Positions 19,364 to 34,144 of a stretch of 64,000 nucleotides of DNA are shown in pieces. Both the position numbers and the translations under genes were made by a program. The first letter of the stretch is position 1; each line of letters begins with the position of its first letter. The notes beneath the pieces were generated by a model. It worked only from the letters and a program-made list of their open reading frames with translations, was not told the DNA's origin and did no database searches. The stretch is from Tichowtungia aerotolerans. GTDB taxonomy: Bacteria; Verrucomicrobiota; Kiritimatiellia; Kiritimatiellales; Tichowtungiaceae. The stretch is taken from the NCBI RefSeq assembly GCF_009905215.1, contig NZ_CP047593.1:372001-436000 (forward strand), given 5' to 3'.

Positions 19364-20797
19364 TCAGACCGGGTCACTGATGATACCGGCGATCACTTCA
19401 ACCTCAAGCAATCGGGAAAACAACGCCTGGCGAAGAATCCGCAGGTCGGTTACCAGTGATCGGGTGTGAGCGTAATAGAGCGCATCCATCTGCCGATCTA
19501 TCTCAGCAAATGCGTCTGAATGAGTGAAGACGGCCGGAAAATAGCGATTTCCCTCGTTGAAGCCATCGGACCCGCAAGCTTTGGGGACCTGACCGCAAAG
19601 CCAAAGCTTCCCGGAAAGAACGCTGAGTAACTGGGGAAAACGATCCAGAGAAGCACCATAGAAAATCATCAGCAGCACGCTGGGCACGACATCGGTTGCC
19701 ACAAAACAGGAGGTTACAATCCGTTTTCCGCCGATCCCCCACACCGGTTTTTTAATGAACACTCCAAGTCGCCGCAAACGGAGAACCGTATAAAGCAGAA
19801 TGAACGGAACCAACTGAATCAGAACTAAAAACAACGCGCATTCCCAGCCGAAAACTGTGCGCAGGAAATCACGCATATAATTTTTCGACTGAGTATGGGC
19901 CACCAGCCAGGGGTCTTCGATATCGACAAAACTCCCGTCGGCAGGATCAATAATGCGGTTCCCGGCAACGATCTTTCCGTTGATTTCCAGATTCCGGCCG
20001 ACATACGTGTCGGAAAGAATAATGCTCTCAGACAATTCGCTCTGACGATCAATCAGTACATGATCTGAAATAACAACATCCGGACCAACCGAACAAATCG
20101 CACCGAGGCGGCAGTCGTTGCCAATGGCCAAAGGCGGATTAAAAGAAACCGATGGCGGCGTGATGACATTATACCCGATCGCAGCACTGTCGGAGAACGA
20201 GTAGCCGCTGGAGAGATAGCGGTCCATTTCGCTCCGCACAATGGTCATATTCAAATCATAGTATTGGGAAATGTCATGGATTAATGTGATATCCAGCCCA
20301 ACCTGCTTCGGAAAAAGGCATGACTGGCAGGTGCATCGTCCGTTCCGAATAAATGCATCCACCATTTCGGGATTGTCACTCACAAAGAAAGCGGGACTTC
20401 CATTTTCCGTATAACAGGCTCCGGGGAGCAGGTCTTTAAGCCGGTCCGAAGAGAAATCAGCCAAACGACGGGGGAACAGCGCTCCGGACAGATACAGGAG
20501 ACCATCACGCCAACGCGCAGGATCACGAGCGAGGTATTCCTGCGGAGAATCCCCGGGACGAATGAAGCTGTAGTTGATATTCAGGCCCCATTTTTCGCCG
20601 TTGCCGCAAAACAACTCAATATGCTCGGCATCCTGGCCAAGAATCAGCTGCAGTTCCGTAATCCCAAGGTCTACACACAACTCAAGCCAATAGGTGAGTA
20701 AAGGGCGGCTGCCAACCGGCAACAGGGCCCAGGGCCGCTCGCCTAACACGGCGGCCCATGGCTGTCTGCTGCCTGTATAAAACACTGCCCTCATCAC
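19364..20797 (-). CDS. Nucleotidyltransferase/beta-helix/sugar-transferase-like hybrid
   Basis: 477 residues in three parts. Residues about 1-150 resemble a sugar-nucleotidyltransferase fold (LLPVGSRPLLTYWLEL) but lack the usual Gly-rich GGxGTRL loop. Residues about 205-285 show hexapeptide-like turns of a left-handed beta helix (IGNDCRLGAICSVGPDVVI). Residues 318-410 have a membrane segment, then VWGIGGKRIVTS and LDRFPQLLSVLSGKLWLCGQ, a degenerate echo of the sugar-transferase signature (LDExPQL-NVL-G-MSLVGPRP). The catalytic Glu and the GPRP are lost, so this half is probably inactive or structural. It ends the STAS/sugar-transferase operon. Confidence 0.6.
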   Translation of the reverse strand: MMRAVFYTGSRQPWAAVLGERPWALLPVGSRPLLTYWLELCVDLGITELQLILGQDAEHIELFCGNGEKWGLNINYSFIRPGDSPQEYLARDPARWRDGLLYLSGALFPRRLADFSSDRLKDLLPGACYTENGSPAFFVSDNPEMVDAFIRNGRCTCQSCLFPKQVGLDITLIHDISQYYDLNMTIVRSEMDRYLSSGYSFSDSAAIGYNVITPPSVSFNPPLAIGNDCRLGAICSVGPDVVISDHVLIDRQSELSESIILSDTYVGRNLEINGKIVAGNRIIDPADGSFVDIEDPWLVAHTQSKNYMRDFLRTVFGWECALFLVLIQLVPFILLYTVLRLRRLGVFIKKPVWGIGGKRIVTSCFVATDVVPSVLLMIFYGASLDRFPQLLSVLSGKLWLCGQVPKACGSDGFNEGNRYFPAVFTHSDAFAEIDRQMDALYYAHTRSLVTDLRILRQALFSRLLEVEVIAGIISDPV

Positions 20798-20815
20798 AGG
20801 AAACGTTCTGCGCAG

Positions 20816-21160
20816 CTATTCACCGGCGGCGCTGAGCGCTTCTTCAACCGTGTCGTAGATCTCAAACACCTTATATGCCCGCGTAATCTCAAACACCATG
20901 CGAGGTTTTTTCTGAAGACACGCCAATTTCATATCACCGCCGCGTTCTGTAATCCGTTTTAGAGCGGCAATCAGGGCCCCCAGGCCGGCACTGTCCATGA
21001 AATCCACGGCCGATAAATCAAACACAAAGTTTTTCACCGCAGCCTCTTCGGCCTGCCATGCGGCAAACTGTTCACGAAATGCTTCCACGGTCGCGGCGGT
21101 CAGCGGCCCCGACAGGCTGATCAGACCGGCCCCGTTTTCTTTGGTACATGCTACACTCAT
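20816..21160 (-). CDS. STAS-domain anti-sigma-factor antagonist
   Basis: A 114-residue single STAS domain with NFVFDLSAVDFMDSAGLGAL. The Ser in DSAGLG is the residue phosphorylated in SpoIIAA/RsbV proteins. It would be phosphorylated by an RsbW-like kinase domain and released by a PP2C phosphatase; both lie in the protein encoded at 21913-23550. It sits between the two exopolysaccharide genes, which suggests that its partner controls polysaccharide output rather than a sigma factor. Confidence 0.88.
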   Translation of the reverse strand: MSVACTKENGAGLISLSGPLTAATVEAFREQFAAWQAEEAAVKNFVFDLSAVDFMDSAGLGALIAALKRITERGGDMKLACLQKKPRMVFEITRAYKVFEIYDTVEEALSAAGE

Positions 21161-21181
21161 GATTTCTCTCCCTCTTCTTTA

Positions 21182-21916
21182 TCAATACGCCCCGCGCCCT
21201 AAGAGGACAGCAGGTACAGTTTTTAACATAATTCGAATGTCGTTCCAGATACTGCGACTGTTGATGTATTCAAGATCCAGGTGAACCTGCTGTTCAAAAG
21301 GAATCTCCGACCGGCCGCCAATCTGCCACAGACAGGTCAGGCCCGGCTTCACATGGAGCCGTTTGCGGTCCTCCAGCGTATACTGAGCCACCTCTGAAGG
21401 CAAAGGCGGCCGCGGCCCGACCAAGGACAGATCTCCGGTGAGCACATTAAAAAACTGAGGCGTTTCATCAATACTGAATCGGCGAATAAAACGCCCGACG
21501 CGCGTAACACGGGGGTCCTGTTTCATCTTAAAGATCACCCCGTCGCTGGATTCATTCTGATTCATCAACTGCTCTCTGATACGATCGGCATCGCGACGCA
21601 TCGAGCGGAACTTGTAGAAGTTAAAAACGCGCCCATTCATGCCGACGCGTGACTGCATATAAAAAACCGGCCACCCATCCTCGATCACAATGCACAACGC
21701 CGTCATAAGAAACAGCGGCATAAAAATGAGAATAGCGGACAGACTGCCAACAATATCAATCACTCTTTTGATCACCAGCAGACTGCTTAAAGCTCCCTCC
21801 CACAACAGCAGGCGCACGCGCTGCTGCCAGCGAAGACGCTTCACATCCGCTTTGGAAACGGGTAAATCCAGCGTTTTAAACAATTCCTGCCGAGCCTGAT
21901 AGACCGATTCGTTCAT
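21182..21916 (-). CDS. Undecaprenyl-phosphate sugar phosphotransferase
   Basis: 244 residues of the bacterial sugar transferase (WcaJ/EpsE-type) family. It has one N-terminal hydrophobic hairpin (IDIVGSLSAILIFMPLFLMT), then FYMQSRVGMNGRVFNFYKFR and SIDETPQFFNVLTGDLSLVG with an intact PRPPLPSE, then KPGLTCLWQIGGR. All catalytic motifs are present. It transfers a sugar phosphate to undecaprenyl phosphate at the inner membrane and starts an exopolysaccharide repeat unit. The start overlaps the upstream signalling gene (ATGA). Confidence 0.9.
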   Translation of the reverse strand: MNESVYQARQELFKTLDLPVSKADVKRLRWQQRVRLLLWEGALSSLLVIKRVIDIVGSLSAILIFMPLFLMTALCIVIEDGWPVFYMQSRVGMNGRVFNFYKFRSMRRDADRIREQLMNQNESSDGVIFKMKQDPRVTRVGRFIRRFSIDETPQFFNVLTGDLSLVGPRPPLPSEVAQYTLEDRKRLHVKPGLTCLWQIGGRSEIPFEQQVHLDLEYINSRSIWNDIRIMLKTVPAVLLGRGAY

Positions 21917-23550
21917 GAGTCAGACTGTCTCCTGAAAAGGTAACTTACAACATTCCTGGAATCCCGTCTATAACGCTCCACAAAATCCGCCGCCACATTG
22001 GTAATAGCCAGTCCTCGGCCACCCTCTGCATACTGATCAAGTTCGAAATTTACAGATTCAGCCAAGGCATGATCCCATTCCCGCCCGGCATCGGAAAAAA
22101 TCAGACGATAATCGCAGCCGTCCATCAGTAACTGAGTCCAAATCGCACTGGAAGCATCCAAACCGCTGTGTTCCACCACATTCATGGCATGCTCCATCGC
22201 AACAAGTCTGATCCGGGCCGCAATATCCTCTTCCTCATGCGTCAGAACCAGCTCCTCCATTTTCTCACAAACCATTGAAACAGAATCCATATCCACCGGA
22301 ATCTCTGTTTCAAGCAACACACTGGAAGACTCAGTCATGCGAATAACCACTGCGGTACAATCATCGCTGCCAACCGCATAATTCTCGCTTTCAATCAGGT
22401 CCAGCAACGCCTCCGGTTTTTCAACCTTCGATGAATCAGACAGCACTTGAGAAAAAAACCGGCGCAGATTCTCTTCGCCGCACTCTTCGCCGGTTTCATG
22501 ATGAGTCGCCTCACTCAATCCATCGGTGTAAAGCAGCATCTTCAGTTTCTCACAATGCTCAAGTATTGTCTGATCGCCCTCGTCGTATGGGCGATCAGGG
22601 CCCAGCGCCAGACCTACCGGAATTCCGCCGCCGCCCGCCGGAAAGGGAACCTGCTTTTCTCCACACACAAGTATCGGATCCGGATGACCGCAATTCATGC
22701 AGACCCATCGTTTGGGGATCGGCTCATAAAGAGCCATAAACATGGTTGCATAATACGCTGGATTGTTAATCGCCGCACAGAGACGAACATGTAGTTCGTT
22801 GCAGATATAGGCCGGTCCTCGCTCATAAAAAGAGCTGATCAGTTCGGTCGCAGACGCTTTCAGCATCGACGAAATCATGGCCGGAGCCACGCCATGACCG
22901 GATACGTCGGCCAGATAAACACAGCAACGCCCGTCCGGAAGATCCAGCACATCAAAAGCATCCCCGCCAATATCCATCGATGCTTTGTACTTCACCCGAA
23001 TTTCAAATGACTTGGAAAAAAAAGGAGTATCTGAAAACATCGACTGCTGAATGGCTCCGGCCAGCTCCAGTTCATGGGACATTCGCCGCTTCCAGCGGGC
23101 AAGAGCCTCCCGACTGCGCTTCAAGGCAAGCGCATTCCCTACCCGGAGCACCAACTCCCGGGCATCAAAAGGCTTCCGGATATAATCCATGGCCCCGAGA
23201 TCAAATCCTTTTTTGAGGTCATCAATGTGACCCTTGGCGGTAACCATGATCACGGGAATGTCGCGTGTAGCGGACAGCTCTTTAATGGCTCCGCACAGCT
23301 CAAAGCCGTCCATATTGGGCATTACAACATCGGCCAACACCAAATCCGGACGCTGGATATGCACAGTCTCCAGAGCTGTTGGTCCATCCGGAGCCATCAA
23401 CACTTCGCAACCGTAGGATGACAGCAGCTTTTTCAGGTACAGGCGATTGGGAAGCTCATCATCCACCACCAGAACCGTTCCACCCAACCCCCCTCTGGAA
23501 AAATCCGGTACAGAGCGCGCCAAAGCCTGATCTGCCAAAGGGTTACTCAT
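21913..23550 (-). CDS. REC-PP2C phosphatase-RsbW kinase regulator
   Basis: 545 residues with three modules. The receiver domain is at about 25-145 (Asp74 in LADVVMPNMDG, Lys in IRKPFDA). The SpoIIE/PP2C phosphatase is at about 165-405 (GGDAFDVLDL, ADVSGHGVAPAM, YTDGLSEA, GSDDCTAVV). The C-terminal GHKL/RsbW-like ATPase is at about 420-540 (EHAMNVVEHSG, EGGRGLAI). Phosphorylation of Asp74 could switch between phosphatase and kinase action on the STAS protein encoded at 20816. The domain set equals that of Vibrio SypE in another order. It overlaps both neighbours by ATGA. Confidence 0.88.
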   Translation of the reverse strand: MSNPLADQALARSVPDFSRGGLGGTVLVVDDELPNRLYLKKLLSSYGCEVLMAPDGPTALETVHIQRPDLVLADVVMPNMDGFELCGAIKELSATRDIPVIMVTAKGHIDDLKKGFDLGAMDYIRKPFDARELVLRVGNALALKRSREALARWKRRMSHELELAGAIQQSMFSDTPFFSKSFEIRVKYKASMDIGGDAFDVLDLPDGRCCVYLADVSGHGVAPAMISSMLKASATELISSFYERGPAYICNELHVRLCAAINNPAYYATMFMALYEPIPKRWVCMNCGHPDPILVCGEKQVPFPAGGGGIPVGLALGPDRPYDEGDQTILEHCEKLKMLLYTDGLSEATHHETGEECGEENLRRFFSQVLSDSSKVEKPEALLDLIESENYAVGSDDCTAVVIRMTESSSVLLETEIPVDMDSVSMVCEKMEELVLTHEEEDIAARIRLVAMEHAMNVVEHSGLDASSAIWTQLLMDGCDYRLIFSDAGREWDHALAESVNFELDQYAEGGRGLAITNVAADFVERYRRDSRNVVSYLFRRQSDS

Positions 23551-23909
23551 TGATTTGCAGTAACAAATTCACGGGACCACTGGACCAAAGCCAGGCAGAG
23601 GGTTTTGCTTCGATCCTGATCTCCGGACCGAACCGCCAGCTCAATATCCTGAGCAAGCACAGAAATCTCCGGAAGCCCCATGGTCCCCCCCATCCCTTTC
23701 ACAGAATGCGCGGCCACCCGGATCTTTTCCTCGTCCGATTCATCCAATCCGGCCTGCAGGTCTCCTCCGACCCGGGCAAGCTCTTCACAAAAAGCACCGA
23801 TCAGTTCCTGATCCATCTCAAAGGTTTCAACTTCGAACTGGCTGATTCTGCCGTCGAGGTCAGGAACCAGTTCACGAACCATCTCGATTGCGCGCGGGAT
23901 TGCTGTCAT
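23547..23909 (-). CDS. HPt phosphotransfer protein
   Basis: 120 residues forming a single HPt four-helix domain with VAAHSVKGMGGTMGLPEI; the His of AHSVKG is the phosphorylatable residue. Its stop overlaps the start of the REC-PP2C gene (ATGA). It probably passes phosphate from a hybrid histidine kinase encoded elsewhere to Asp74 of that protein. It is the first gene of the five-gene operon. Confidence 0.85.
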   Translation of the reverse strand: MTAIPRAIEMVRELVPDLDGRISQFEVETFEMDQELIGAFCEELARVGGDLQAGLDESDEEKIRVAAHSVKGMGGTMGLPEISVLAQDIELAVRSGDQDRSKTLCLALVQWSREFVTANQ

Positions 23910-24054
23910 ACTTTCACCTTATTGCTGATCGTCAAATACAGGTGCGCAGGATAACCCTTTTTACAGAAGAGAGGCAAGCCTTTCACCGAACAGGGAATTT
24001 AAAAGCAAGAGATTGAAGCCGCACGCTCATTACGCCAAGATACCAGGACTGTTT

Positions 24055-26226
24055 ATGCAAAATGTATCTATAGATTACCCTGCTGTTCCATGGGAGCCGG
24101 ATTGGCGGCTTTGCTCCGAACCGGAAGATTCTGTACGTTTCATAACCCAAAACATTCCGGGCGCAATTACAACGCCGGGCTCCGACTGGACGCTGCAGCT
24201 GACTAAACCGTCTCTTCCATTACGCTCGCGGCTGTTTCATAACGGTCTTTCGATCCATATACGCAAACAGAAAAAAAACAAAAGCATTACTGCATTTTCA
24301 ACCGGAAATGGAATCCTGAACGGATTGGTTACCGGACTTCCAATGCCGGAACTATCAGGCAGTGAACAATCCTCGCCGACTGCCGGCGAAACATGGATCA
24401 GAAAACCAGGCAACAACACCCTGCTGCTCTGTAAGGAATCCCGCTTTGTTCTGATCACAGGAAATCTCCCCGACGAACTGGCCATTGCAAAAGCGGAAGA
24501 AGCCCTCGACCAGAATTTTGATGCCATCGCTGCAGACGAAACGAAACAGCGCGAACGCATTTCAAAACTGTTCAGCATTAACCCCCGCCACAACCCGCCG
24601 GTCGCACTGGCCGCGGAAACCCTGCACCAGCGACTGCGAGGCCGCACACCGTCAATACACGGAGTCTGGAGCACATCAGACGGGTTCGAAAACGAAACCT
24701 TTTCCCTGAACGAGCTTTATCCGTTGACCCGAGCATGGCTGCTGCTCTGTCCGGAAACAGCACTTGAGCTGGTGCAGACGGCTCTTGCGCTTCAGCTTCC
24801 ATCAGGGGGATTCCCTGCATGGATCAACGACCAGGGAGCCGTTTCGTCCGTTGCTCCGTGGCCCATGATGATCCAAAGCTTTGAGCTGGCCTGGCAAAAA
24901 GAGTCGAATTCAGCTCTGCTGAAAAAACATCTTCCGGCGATGCGTAAATACATGCAGTGGGCTCTCCGTTACTACGATCCCCACCGCGACCGAATTCCCG
25001 CCTGGCAAAGTGACATGGAGGTATTTGTTCCGAACAGCTTTGAGCGCAACAAAGCCACTCCCGACCTGACCGTCATGCTCATGGGAGAACTGGAGGCGTT
25101 GCTGCGCCTCTGCCGGAAAAACGAATATGCCCAAACCGCAATAGATCAGCTGAACGAAGAACACGCACAGCTGACCCATACCCTGACCAGCGTCTTCTGG
25201 AACCCGGAAACCAAAGCATTTTCCAATGTTTGGAAAGATGGACACATTCTCCATGAACCCTCTTTCGGTTCATTCACCCCGCTGTGCCGCCCCGACCTCC
25301 CTGCTCAATTCAAGAGCCCTCTGCTCGAAAACTTTGAAGAAACCCATGGTTTTCCCGGCCGCGATAACCCATCCAGCTGGAAAAAAGAACAAATTGATGA
25401 CACGACGCACCTCCCGGCCATTCAACAGTTTATGGCCTTTGACGCCCTGCGGTGCTCCGATGACGGCCGGGCCCTGCTGATGCTTTTTGTCCGCCGGGCA
25501 CGCGAAGGATTCGCAGCATGGTTCGAACGGGAACGTATTGATACCGCCCGGCACGAAGCTCACGAAGAACGCTCCGAAAAACACATTTTTTCTCTCGGCC
25601 CCATCACAGCAGCCCTGATCCTGACCACTCAGAAGGAATTTCAGCGCGAAGCCGTCAAAAATGCTCCGGCAGTTAAAACCCTGCAGCGCTGGGCCCACCG
25701 CTTTCGTTTCGATGCAACCGACCTGCGTATTATCATTGGGGTCGGCATTACTATTCTGCTCGTACACTTGCTGTACCACCCGATCCGGCCCGCCAACGAG
25801 GCCACCCGCATGTCCGAAGCAGCCCTCAACTACAAACAGGGCAACTTAACCAAAGCTCTGCAGATCTGCCGACAGTATCCGGACAATCCGCTCTCCTGCT
25901 TCCTGAGAGCCAACCTGATGATGCTTACAGAAAACCCCGCCGAAGCGGAAAAGCTGTACCTGAAAACACTGAACGAAAAGATTGAAAGCCCATCAGCCCT
26001 TTTCGGATACGCTCTGTCTCTGCAAATGAATGAAAAATTTGATCTGGCGATTCGCCGATACAATGACTTCATCGATATCCATGAAGCAAAACTGAGAAAC
26101 CCCAATCAAACAGACCTGATTGACCTGGCTTATGAATACCTGCGTTTGACAGAAGAAAAATTCACGAAACCACCAAAATGGAAACGGGCCTATATGCTTC
26201 CGGAAATGAATGACCTTGGATTATGA
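24055..26226 (+). CDS. (alpha/alpha)6 hydrolase-like membrane protein with TPR
   Basis: About 723 residues. The first 550 look like an (alpha/alpha)6-barrel protein of the GH63/GH37/amylo-glucosidase type, with repeated paired helices, Trp-rich loops (YDPHRDRIPAWQSDMEVF) and an Asn-Arg stretch (FERNKATPDLTVMLMGELE). A single membrane helix follows near residue 575, then a TPR-like region (NYKQGNLTKALQICRQYPDN onward). I chose ATG 24055; a TTG at 24013 is an alternative. A perfect palindrome (25221-25235) is read SNVWK in the barrel. The substrate is unknown. Confidence 0.55.
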   Translation: MQNVSIDYPAVPWEPDWRLCSEPEDSVRFITQNIPGAITTPGSDWTLQLTKPSLPLRSRLFHNGLSIHIRKQKKNKSITAFSTGNGILNGLVTGLPMPELSGSEQSSPTAGETWIRKPGNNTLLLCKESRFVLITGNLPDELAIAKAEEALDQNFDAIAADETKQRERISKLFSINPRHNPPVALAAETLHQRLRGRTPSIHGVWSTSDGFENETFSLNELYPLTRAWLLLCPETALELVQTALALQLPSGGFPAWINDQGAVSSVAPWPMMIQSFELAWQKESNSALLKKHLPAMRKYMQWALRYYDPHRDRIPAWQSDMEVFVPNSFERNKATPDLTVMLMGELEALLRLCRKNEYAQTAIDQLNEEHAQLTHTLTSVFWNPETKAFSNVWKDGHILHEPSFGSFTPLCRPDLPAQFKSPLLENFEETHGFPGRDNPSSWKKEQIDDTTHLPAIQQFMAFDALRCSDDGRALLMLFVRRAREGFAAWFERERIDTARHEAHEERSEKHIFSLGPITAALILTTQKEFQREAVKNAPAVKTLQRWAHRFRFDATDLRIIIGVGITILLVHLLYHPIRPANEATRMSEAALNYKQGNLTKALQICRQYPDNPLSCFLRANLMMLTENPAEAEKLYLKTLNEKIESPSALFGYALSLQMNEKFDLAIRRYNDFIDIHEAKLRNPNQTDLIDLAYEYLRLTEEKFTKPPKWKRAYMLPEMNDLGL
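25221..25235. repeat. Dispersed palindrome, perfect copy
   Basis: TTCCAA-TGT-TTGGAA inside the barrel-domain gene. Confidence 0.9.
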
Positions 26227-32395: not shown

Positions 32396-34144
32396 TTACT
32401 CACCGGGAGATGCTTCCAGGACGGTTCGAACCGCAGTCACCAACCCGTTGTTCTGGAACGGCTTCTTAATAAAACCGGTGTGCGGGATCTGCTCAAAACG
32501 GGCCATCACCTCTTCCCGCGGATACCCGCTCATAAACAGCACGGGCACTTTGGGGTTGATGTGCCGGATTCTCATAACAGCTTCCTGCCCGTTTAAGCCC
32601 GGCATATTCACATCCATCAGCAGGAATGTGATATCGCCGGCATATTCGGTATACAGATCGACGGCCTTCATTCCGTTCGATGCAGTCAGTACGCGGAACC
32701 CCAACCGCTCCAGGAGTGCATTGGTTACATCCAGAATGGCTTCTTCGTCATCTGCAATCAAAGCTGTTCCGAACCCTCGCCAATCGGAAGCCTCTCCGCC
32801 AAAAATACAGACTTCATCTTCCCGCGCCTGTTTCTCAACCGGGAAATACACTCGGAAAACAGTCCCTCTGCCGAGATCACTCTTTACTTCCACCGATCCG
32901 TTATGGCGCTCAACGGCATTCAGAAGTGACGCCAATCCAAGCCCCCGACCACTGACCTTTGTGGTGAAAAGAGGATTGAAAATTTTCTGACGGGTTTTTT
33001 CATCCATCCCGGAACCGGTATCAGAAACCTCAAGACGCACATAGGGTCCTTCCGGAGAACTGCCCATCGGATACACATCTTTCAGCTCGCCCGCTCTCAG
33101 ATGCACCTTGTGAATACTGATGGCAATCACACCTTCACGATCTCCAATGGCTTCCGAGGCATTGGTGATCAGATTCATAGCCACCTGGCGAATCTGAGAC
33201 ACATCTCCCCGAACGAACGGAATATCATCTTTCAGGCAGTATTCAATTTTTACCTTCTTGGAAATCGAAACATCAAGCAATGCGCCCATCTCCCGAACAA
33301 CGGAGGAAAGGTTGATACTGCTGACAACCAATGTGGTCTTCCCTGTATAAACCAGCATCTGGTTCGCCAGTTCAGCGGCCCGCAGAGTCGTTCTCTTAAT
33401 CTCATCGAGAACGCTGTCATCTGTTCCTCCGCACTCAAGCAGAGCCAGTTCGGCATTTCCCAGCACCACCGTCATCAGGTTGTTGAAGTCGTGCGCAATT
33501 CCGCTGGCCAGCAACCCGAGCCCGGCCATTTTCTGACTTTCCTGAAATTTACGCTCCAAGATCCGCACGCTGTCTTCAAGCCGTGTAATCTGTGTCACAT
33601 CACGGACCGACCCGCTCACAACAGCCGCTTTTCCGGACTCATCGTAGCTGATATACAAATGATCGCTCATCGAACGGCACAGACCATCTTTATGGATTAA
33701 GCGATACTCAATCACTCCCTGCCAATCATCTGCTTTCGAACGACTCTGAAGTTCCGACATCAACCGAAAAACAGTTTCCTGATCATCCGGATGAATAAGC
33801 TGAAGCCTGTCCTTAAAACTCAATGCGTCCAGCTCCTCGGCGGTCAAACCGGTAAGGCTGAAACAGGCCGGACTCAGAAATTCAAATTTCTGTGCCCTGA
33901 TATCATATTTATAAATGGCTTCACGCGAATGCTGCAAAACCTGTCGCAACTGAGCCTGAGCCTGTTCACATCCATACGCACTCCTGCGCATGCTTGCATT
34001 GCGCCGCAGATGCACGACTCCCCAAACCAGTGCCGCACCGCAGACAAAAGTCCATAGAGCCATATAATGAAGCGCCACCGAGTCATACATAACCGGAAGA
34101 GCAGCGGACCCACACACATTGTAAACAGGACTGATCAGGCTCAT
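32396..34144 (-). CDS. PAS hybrid histidine kinase
   Basis: A 582-residue membrane sensor. One membrane helix lies near residues 27-45, a PAS domain at about 80-200 (YKYDIRAQKFEFLSPACFSL), and the HisKA box is SGIAHDFNNLMTVV. The HATPase has NLITNASEA and SDTGSGMDEKT, and the C-terminal receiver domain at about 455-575 has the Asp in FLLMDVNMPGLNG. It is the common PAS hybrid type in this group of bacteria. The response regulator upstream overlaps its start (ATGA), so they form a pair. The stimulus is unknown. Confidence 0.88.
   Translation of the reverse strand: MSLISPVYNVCGSAALPVMYDSVALHYMALWTFVCGAALVWGVVHLRRNASMRRSAYGCEQAQAQLRQVLQHSREAIYKYDIRAQKFEFLSPACFSLTGLTAEELDALSFKDRLQLIHPDDQETVFRLMSELQSRSKADDWQGVIEYRLIHKDGLCRSMSDHLYISYDESGKAAVVSGSVRDVTQITRLEDSVRILERKFQESQKMAGLGLLASGIAHDFNNLMTVVLGNAELALLECGGTDDSVLDEIKRTTLRAAELANQMLVYTGKTTLVVSSINLSSVVREMGALLDVSISKKVKIEYCLKDDIPFVRGDVSQIRQVAMNLITNASEAIGDREGVIAISIHKVHLRAGELKDVYPMGSSPEGPYVRLEVSDTGSGMDEKTRQKIFNPLFTTKVSGRGLGLASLLNAVERHNGSVEVKSDLGRGTVFRVYFPVEKQAREDEVCIFGGEASDWRGFGTALIADDEEAILDVTNALLERLGFRVLTASNGMKAVDLYTEYAGDITFLLMDVNMPGLNGQEAVMRIRHINPKVPVLFMSGYPREEVMARFEQIPHTGFIKKPFQNNGLVTAVRTVLEASPGE

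Follow-up and report, generated by a model that had tools for sequence, protein, structure and literature searches.

Here we report a computational analysis of a five-gene operon of Tichowtungia aerotolerans (Verrucomicrobiota, Kiritimatiellia), located on the minus strand at positions 19364-23909 of a 64,000-nucleotide stretch of contig NZ_CP047593.1, which is referred to below as the window. The operon probably encodes a partner switch that is fed by a phosphorelay and whose output is the membrane complex starting an exopolysaccharide (EPS) chain. Its products are an HPt phosphotransfer protein, a REC-PP2C-RsbW-type kinase protein, a small monotopic phosphoglycosyl transferase (PGT), a single-domain STAS protein, and a hybrid protein, designated HYB, that combines a degenerate nucleotidyltransferase with a degenerate PGT. 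The kinase, PGT, STAS, and HYB genes are found together in 28 mapped genomes from several families of the class, and this recurrence shows that the arrangement is not due to chance. We lean slightly towards a broader reading, in which the operon represents a class of partner switches spread over several phyla, the STAS protein would be a direct allosteric subunit of the priming complex, and phosphorylation of its serine would gate glycan initiation. As part of the same reading, the priming complex would be composed of the active PGT, the pseudo-PGT/nucleotidyltransferase hybrid, and a WecG-STAS glycosyltransferase, and the switch would act on the priming enzymes directly.

Operon structure and conservation of its linkage

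All five open reading frames (ORFs) that a preliminary description of this DNA had placed on one strand were found there, in the order HPt (23909-23547), kinase (23550-21913), PGT (21916-21182), STAS (21160-20816), and HYB (20797-19364). As that description held, the genes overlap or nearly touch: 4-bp overlaps join HPt to the kinase gene and the kinase gene to PGT, while gaps of 21 and 18 bp separate PGT from STAS and STAS from HYB, respectively. STAS and HYB share a reading frame in the window, an in-frame arrangement that is present in few relatives. The genome of 3.88 Mb is a single contig, and its nearest named relatives are metagenome-assembled genomes from the Kiritimatiellales/Verrucomicrobia.

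The count of 28 genomes was made outside the loci L112-L131, which largely duplicate genomes already in the set (loci and genomes carry L and G handles, respectively). In all untruncated Verrucomicrobiota/Kiritimatiellae loci mapped, STAS is encoded within 6 kb of HYB; an intact PGT gene is always near HYB in untruncated loci, and the HPt gene is adjacent or fused to the kinase gene in most relatives. The loss of linkage in relatives that the preliminary description had regarded as fatal to its proposal therefore does not hold for these genomes. The operon is flanked in its own genome by housekeeping genes (lysA/dapA-like and leucyl aminopeptidase-like), and in the sister family by a different housekeeping set, with RecJ downstream and TGT, YajC, SecDF, and a cation efflux gene upstream; thus, the block order has been kept in two unrelated neighbourhoods.

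Within both the genus and the order, the STAS protein is the best conserved of the five, with a mean identity to the window protein of 87 and 68%, respectively, followed by the REC domain (84 and 65%), PGT (81 and 64%), HYB (65 and 40%), and the kinase domain, which is the least conserved part (62 and 33%). Since the STAS protein is far better conserved than the kinase domain, these values suggest that it may have a further conserved partner besides the kinase.

Signalling proteins

The first gene encodes a 120-aa protein with a Pfam Hpt domain (1.2e-12), whose His68 is retained in 25 of 25 aligned orthologues. The 545-aa product of the second gene has Pfam matches to Response_reg (4e-29), SpoIIE (1.1e-26), and HATPase_c_2 (2.4e-6), which correspond to an N-terminal REC domain (residues 26-137) with the phospho-acceptor Asp74, a PP2C phosphatase, and an RsbW-type kinase. 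The REC aspartate, the PP2C aspartates, and the N-box Glu and Asn are invariant or nearly so across 34 relatives, and Glu453, Asn457, Asp197, Asp215, Asp343, and Asp396 are invariant across the 33-34 copies with letters at these positions. The protein thus combines a GHKL kinase of the RsbW type having an intact N-box with a PP2C domain having its metal-binding aspartates, the pair that marks a partner switch. The third element of such a switch, a phosphorylatable serine in a DSxGLG motif, is found in the 114-aa STAS protein (Pfam STAS, 1.4e-24), where Ser57 lies in the sequence DSAGLG; of 32 aligned copies, 31 have this serine and the remaining one is frameshifted. An apparent STAS-PGT fusion in L067/L121 (a 446-aa ORF) was rejected, since the ORF extends upstream in the frame of STAS and thereby overlaps the PGT gene; this long ORF slightly contaminates the STAS profile used.

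In three loci (L083, L078, and L075), HPt is fused to the N terminus of the kinase protein, and in L070/L071 it is fused to the C terminus of a hybrid histidine kinase. Both types of fusion fit a predicted relay from HPt to REC.

The active phosphoglycosyl transferase and the HYB protein

The third gene encodes a 244-aa protein with a strong Pfam Bac_transf match (2.4e-66) and the features of a small monotopic PGT (PF02397), namely, a re-entrant helix region, a Lys-x-Arg motif, and a catalytic Asp-Glu dyad (Asp150-Glu151). The dyad, Lys102, and Arg104 are invariant in all 27 aligned sequences. Its N terminus is extended by about 47 aa; this conserved extension, together with a G[KR]GAY C terminus, is common to the STAS-linked PGTs of other phyla.

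HYB is a 477-aa protein, the translation of which probably begins at an ATG one codon past the listed GTG, as in its orthologues. It consists of a degenerate nucleotidyltransferase (residues 1-190), a left-handed beta-helix (about 200-292), and a degenerate PGT half with a membrane helix (about 304-470). Pfam assigned no confident family to HYB, with only sub-threshold matches to left-handed beta-helix families, and NCBIfam gave weak matches to nucleotidyltransferase (residues 19-77) and sugar-transferase (302-405) models. When a profile built from 17 relatives (alignment A1) was compared with the PDB, its N-terminal part matched nucleotidyltransferases, residues 304-468 matched PglC (8e37), and residues 367-461 matched WbaP. 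In the AlphaFold2 model (mean pLDDT 78, pTM 0.48), a Rossmann-like part is followed by short strands over the range of the beta-helix, a long helix spanning 307-341, and an alpha/beta part at the end; the top Foldseek matches of the model are nucleotidyltransferases. HYB thus keeps the fold similarity to nucleotidyltransferases; the GxGTR-type loop is not conserved in its orthologues, and the site of the catalytic Lys is occupied by other residues. In the PGT half, 25 of 27 sequences keep Asp385 of the dyad; the Glu is replaced, and 21 of the 27 have Arg instead. Because the nucleotidyltransferase loop is unconserved and the dyad Glu is lost, HYB is probably a pseudo-enzyme.

Alternatively, HYB could have enzymatic activity of its own, such as that of a nucleotidyltransferase or an unusual sugar-phosphate transferase, and be the regulated target rather than an adaptor. 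HYB is indeed kept wherever the module occurs, with the beta-helix as the part conserved best, and nearly all copies retain the dyad Asp; given the loss of the G-loop, the catalytic Lys, and the dyad Glu, as well as the constant proximity of an intact PGT in untruncated loci, we judge this alternative very unlikely. The preliminary description had placed the STAS gene between two synthesis genes; as the fifth gene probably specifies a pseudo-enzyme, the active priming enzyme is the product of the third.

Gene fusions and polysaccharide export loci

Kinase and STAS domains of the type found in the operon are fused to sugar-transferase-like proteins in relatives. In three Pontiellaceae-type genomes, a second HYB-like protein carries a C-terminal RsbW-type kinase domain (L087:1936-3870, with L107; L105:6535-8481; L106:8445-10655), and each of these fusion genes adjoins or overlaps a STAS gene. 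A WecG/TagA/CpsF glycosyltransferase that carries one or two fused STAS domains is encoded directly beside the operon in three loci (L111:5124-6572, L176:7728-9311, and L177:7854-9332), adjoins the kinase gene in L077 (5323-6903), and shares an EPS cluster with HYB, STAS, and PGT in L183 (7847-9292). The second STAS domain of these proteins keeps the DS motif, which the first lacks. The T. aerotolerans genome encodes a WecG-STAS protein at C1:934516-935553 (L174:9005-10069), away from the operon. WecG-STAS and the operon tend to occur together: of 58 relatives, 33 have both, 21 have neither, and 4 have only one of the two (33/3/1/21). Separately, a gene at L083:716-1735, some 3 kb away from the operon in genome G047, encodes a STAS domain joined to a GPP34 (Golgi phosphoprotein 3-like) domain.

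In more distant relatives, unlike in T. aerotolerans, the module forms part of EPS loci. L105 is an export locus in which PGT is followed by HYB-kinase, STAS, a Poly_export/SLBB protein of the Wza type, a short ORF, Wzz, and a Wzx flippase; in L109, a GAF/PAS-SpoIIE-kinase gene is followed by PGT, HYB, STAS, and genes for Wza-type export, Wzz-like, and flippase-like proteins. The proposed wiring of a partner switch to polysaccharide priming is thus supported by linkage, by fusions in both directions (HYB with the kinase and WecG with STAS, besides HPt with the kinase), and by Wza, Wzz, and Wzx neighbours. One refinement concerns the own genome, where the flanks of the operon are housekeeping genes and not an EPS locus.

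It may also be argued that STAS and HYB are structural scaffolds of the priming complex, to which the serine switch is a minor or unrelated input. Such a role would agree with L088 (G044) and L108 (G060), where STAS, PGT, and HYB are kept with no kinase gene within 6 kb, and with the lack of the DS motif in the first STAS domain of WecG-STAS proteins. It is at odds with the invariance of Ser57 in intact STAS copies, the retention of the catalytic residues of kinase and phosphatase, the presence of kinase or phosphatase genes beside nearly all operons, and the ability of the kinase to be fused to HYB, and we consider it quite unlikely.

Occurrence outside the phylum

The HYB alignment was scanned once against 84,980 species genomes. 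As a result, HYB was found outside the phylum in Acidobacteria, Deltaproteobacteria, Riflebacteria, and one Armatimonad-type genome. In six of ten out-of-phylum loci, from Acidobacteria-type and Riflebacteria genomes, a STAS gene is located near HYB and PGT, and four of these six (L135, L137, L140, and L141) also contain PP2C or RsbW-type parts. In several out-of-phylum loci, a further degenerate PGT that has apparently lost its dyad is fused to a WecG domain and encoded between the active PGT and HYB (L140:6505-7947, L137:4122-5495, and L135:6814-8004, as well as L132, L139, and L141).

Comparison with known regulatory systems

In SypE, the receiver domain lies between two effector domains, and we know of no description of a HYB-type gene in the syp locus. 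The preliminary description had compared the operon with SypE-SypA of Vibrio fischeri, noting a different domain order. This difference is confirmed, as the receiver is N-terminal here and central in SypE (PMC3610818), and the HPt gene is part of the operon here, unlike in SypE-SypA. The likeness consists in a response regulator with dual kinase and phosphatase activity that controls polysaccharide through a downstream STAS protein below the level of transcription (PMC10120452). The closest signalling relatives are instead HptB-HsbR-HsbA of Pseudomonas aeruginosa and CrsR-CrsA of Shewanella, which have the same REC-PP2C-kinase/anti-sigma order and a single-domain STAS protein with a phosphorylatable serine; in the Pseudomonas HptB system, as in this operon, the donor is an HPt protein (PMC6482189). 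The HsbA and CrsA systems are known to act through FlgM/FliA, HsbD (a diguanylate cyclase), or RpoS, whereas the conserved neighbourhood partners found here are PGT, HYB, and WecG-STAS.

This resemblance makes it necessary to consider a classical sigma switch, in which the RsbW-type domain would sequester a sigma factor, in the way that CrsR captures RpoS, or the STAS protein would bind an anti-sigma factor, with the sugar-transferase genes merely co-transcribed. In its favour, the domains and their order are those of HsbR/CrsR, which act on sigma factors, an anti-sigma factor, or a diguanylate cyclase; kinase-STAS pairs lacking PGT and HYB occur in some relatives; and a PF04542 search of the own genome identified five sigma-70-type genes. 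None of the five lies in the window region, and no FlgM, HsbD, or sigma-type output domain was present in the neighbours scanned around the operon, so that the nearby sigma or anti-sigma target named beforehand as the other possible refutation did not appear. Moreover, kinase and STAS domains are fused to sugar-transferase-like proteins and not to sigma-related ones, their pairing with HYB and PGT persists in other phyla under different gene arrangements, and, of all parts, the kinase domain is conserved least. On this evidence, a sigma output is unlikely.

The output half resembles EpsW-EpsZ of Myxococcus xanthus, where phosphorylated EpsW directly activates the initiating PGT EpsZ (PMC12802240). 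In both cases, a phosphorylation-controlled signalling protein is associated with an initiating PGT; EpsW is a single-domain response regulator and EpsZ a large monotopic PGT, whereas the operon combines a STAS switch with a small monotopic PGT and a pseudo-PGT hybrid. In comparison with PglC and WbaP, the third gene product has the full catalytic signature, while HYB, which matches both in its profile at 304-468, lacks the dyad Glu and has a degenerate nucleotidyltransferase and a beta-helix fused to its PGT half. HmpU/V/W of Nostoc punctiforme, involved in hormogonium motility and polysaccharide, is likewise a partner switch with a non-sigma STAS output tied to polysaccharide (PMC8256260), although a priming enzyme is not known as its target. 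The operon is thus closest to HptB-HsbR-HsbA/CrsR-CrsA in its signalling half, is like EpsW-EpsZ in its output half, and is not classed here as a member of any of these systems. The open-access literature contained nothing relevant on STAS together with PGT, WecG, or pseudo-enzyme hybrids, and a paper on Pontiella EPS mentions neither STAS nor sugar transferase (PMC7356697); novelty is judged here against that literature and general knowledge.

Other features of the neighbourhood

Divergently from the operon, the window encodes at 24013-26226 a 737-aa protein with no Pfam or NCBIfam match, whose gene is a conserved neighbour of the operon in six congeneric genomes (L061-L064, L089, and L091). 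A PAS-HATPase-REC hybrid kinase encoded at 32396-34144, about 8 kb from the operon, is a candidate phosphate donor for HPt. Elsewhere in the genome, loci L149 (C1:3014000-3033500) and L150 (C1:3095000-3114500) contain one PGT gene each, and several ORFs of L150 resemble glycosyltransferases and flippases, with annotation by eye on the basis of ORF starts. In G053, the STAS gene adjoins an epimerase-like gene. An Rfam search of the window gave zero matches, and matches to promoter and terminator consensus patterns around the operon were about as numerous as in shuffled sequence and were not used.

Discussion

In the proposed mechanism, a hybrid histidine kinase would phosphorylate His68 of HPt, from which the phosphate would pass to Asp74 in the REC domain of the kinase protein. 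By analogy with HsbR (PMC6482189) and SypE (PMC4517449), where REC tips the balance of kinase and phosphatase activities, the state of REC would set the balance of the PP2C phosphatase and the RsbW-type kinase, and thereby the removal of phosphate from Ser57 of STAS or its addition. The STAS protein, probably when it is unphosphorylated, would then leave the kinase domain and bind the priming complex, in which the active PGT would load a sugar-1-phosphate onto undecaprenyl phosphate and the WecG-STAS glycosyltransferase, encoded elsewhere, would add a second sugar. The dead PGT half of HYB could pair with the active PGT, a speculative step that draws on the functional dimer of WbaP and on the EpsZ dimer stabilised by EpsW (PMC12802240), and the nucleotidyltransferase/beta-helix part could provide a docking scaffold. 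Binding of STAS would turn the priming assembly on or off post-translationally, and the polymer concerned would be an EPS.

Several observations weigh against this mechanism. The operon of T. aerotolerans is outside any EPS locus, two other loci of the genome have PGTs of their own, and the WecG-STAS protein of this genome has the first STAS domain only, without a canonical DS motif. The Fisher test for the co-occurrence of WecG-STAS and the operon (p = 1.2e-11) ignores phylogeny. Of the ten out-of-phylum loci, two (L132 and L139) contain HYB and PGT with STAS undetected, and two more are truncated. Finally, kinase and STAS genes are found without neighbouring PGT and HYB in L073, L074, L076, and L080, and in G053 they are encoded at separate places (L072 and L152) with a weak HYB match; therefore, the switch may have other outputs.

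The targets of SypA and HmpV, non-canonical STAS proteins that control polysaccharides, are still unknown (PMC8256260, PMC10120452). The fusions and linkage described here point to a concrete STAS target, namely, the complex of enzymes by which undecaprenyl phosphate is committed to EPS, and so offer a testable answer to what SypA and HmpV act on, as well as a testable role for the widespread unnamed pseudo-enzyme HYB and for the WecG-STAS fusion. If this is true, a module best known for controlling sigma factors would also gate glycan initiation directly, in parallel to EpsW-EpsZ.

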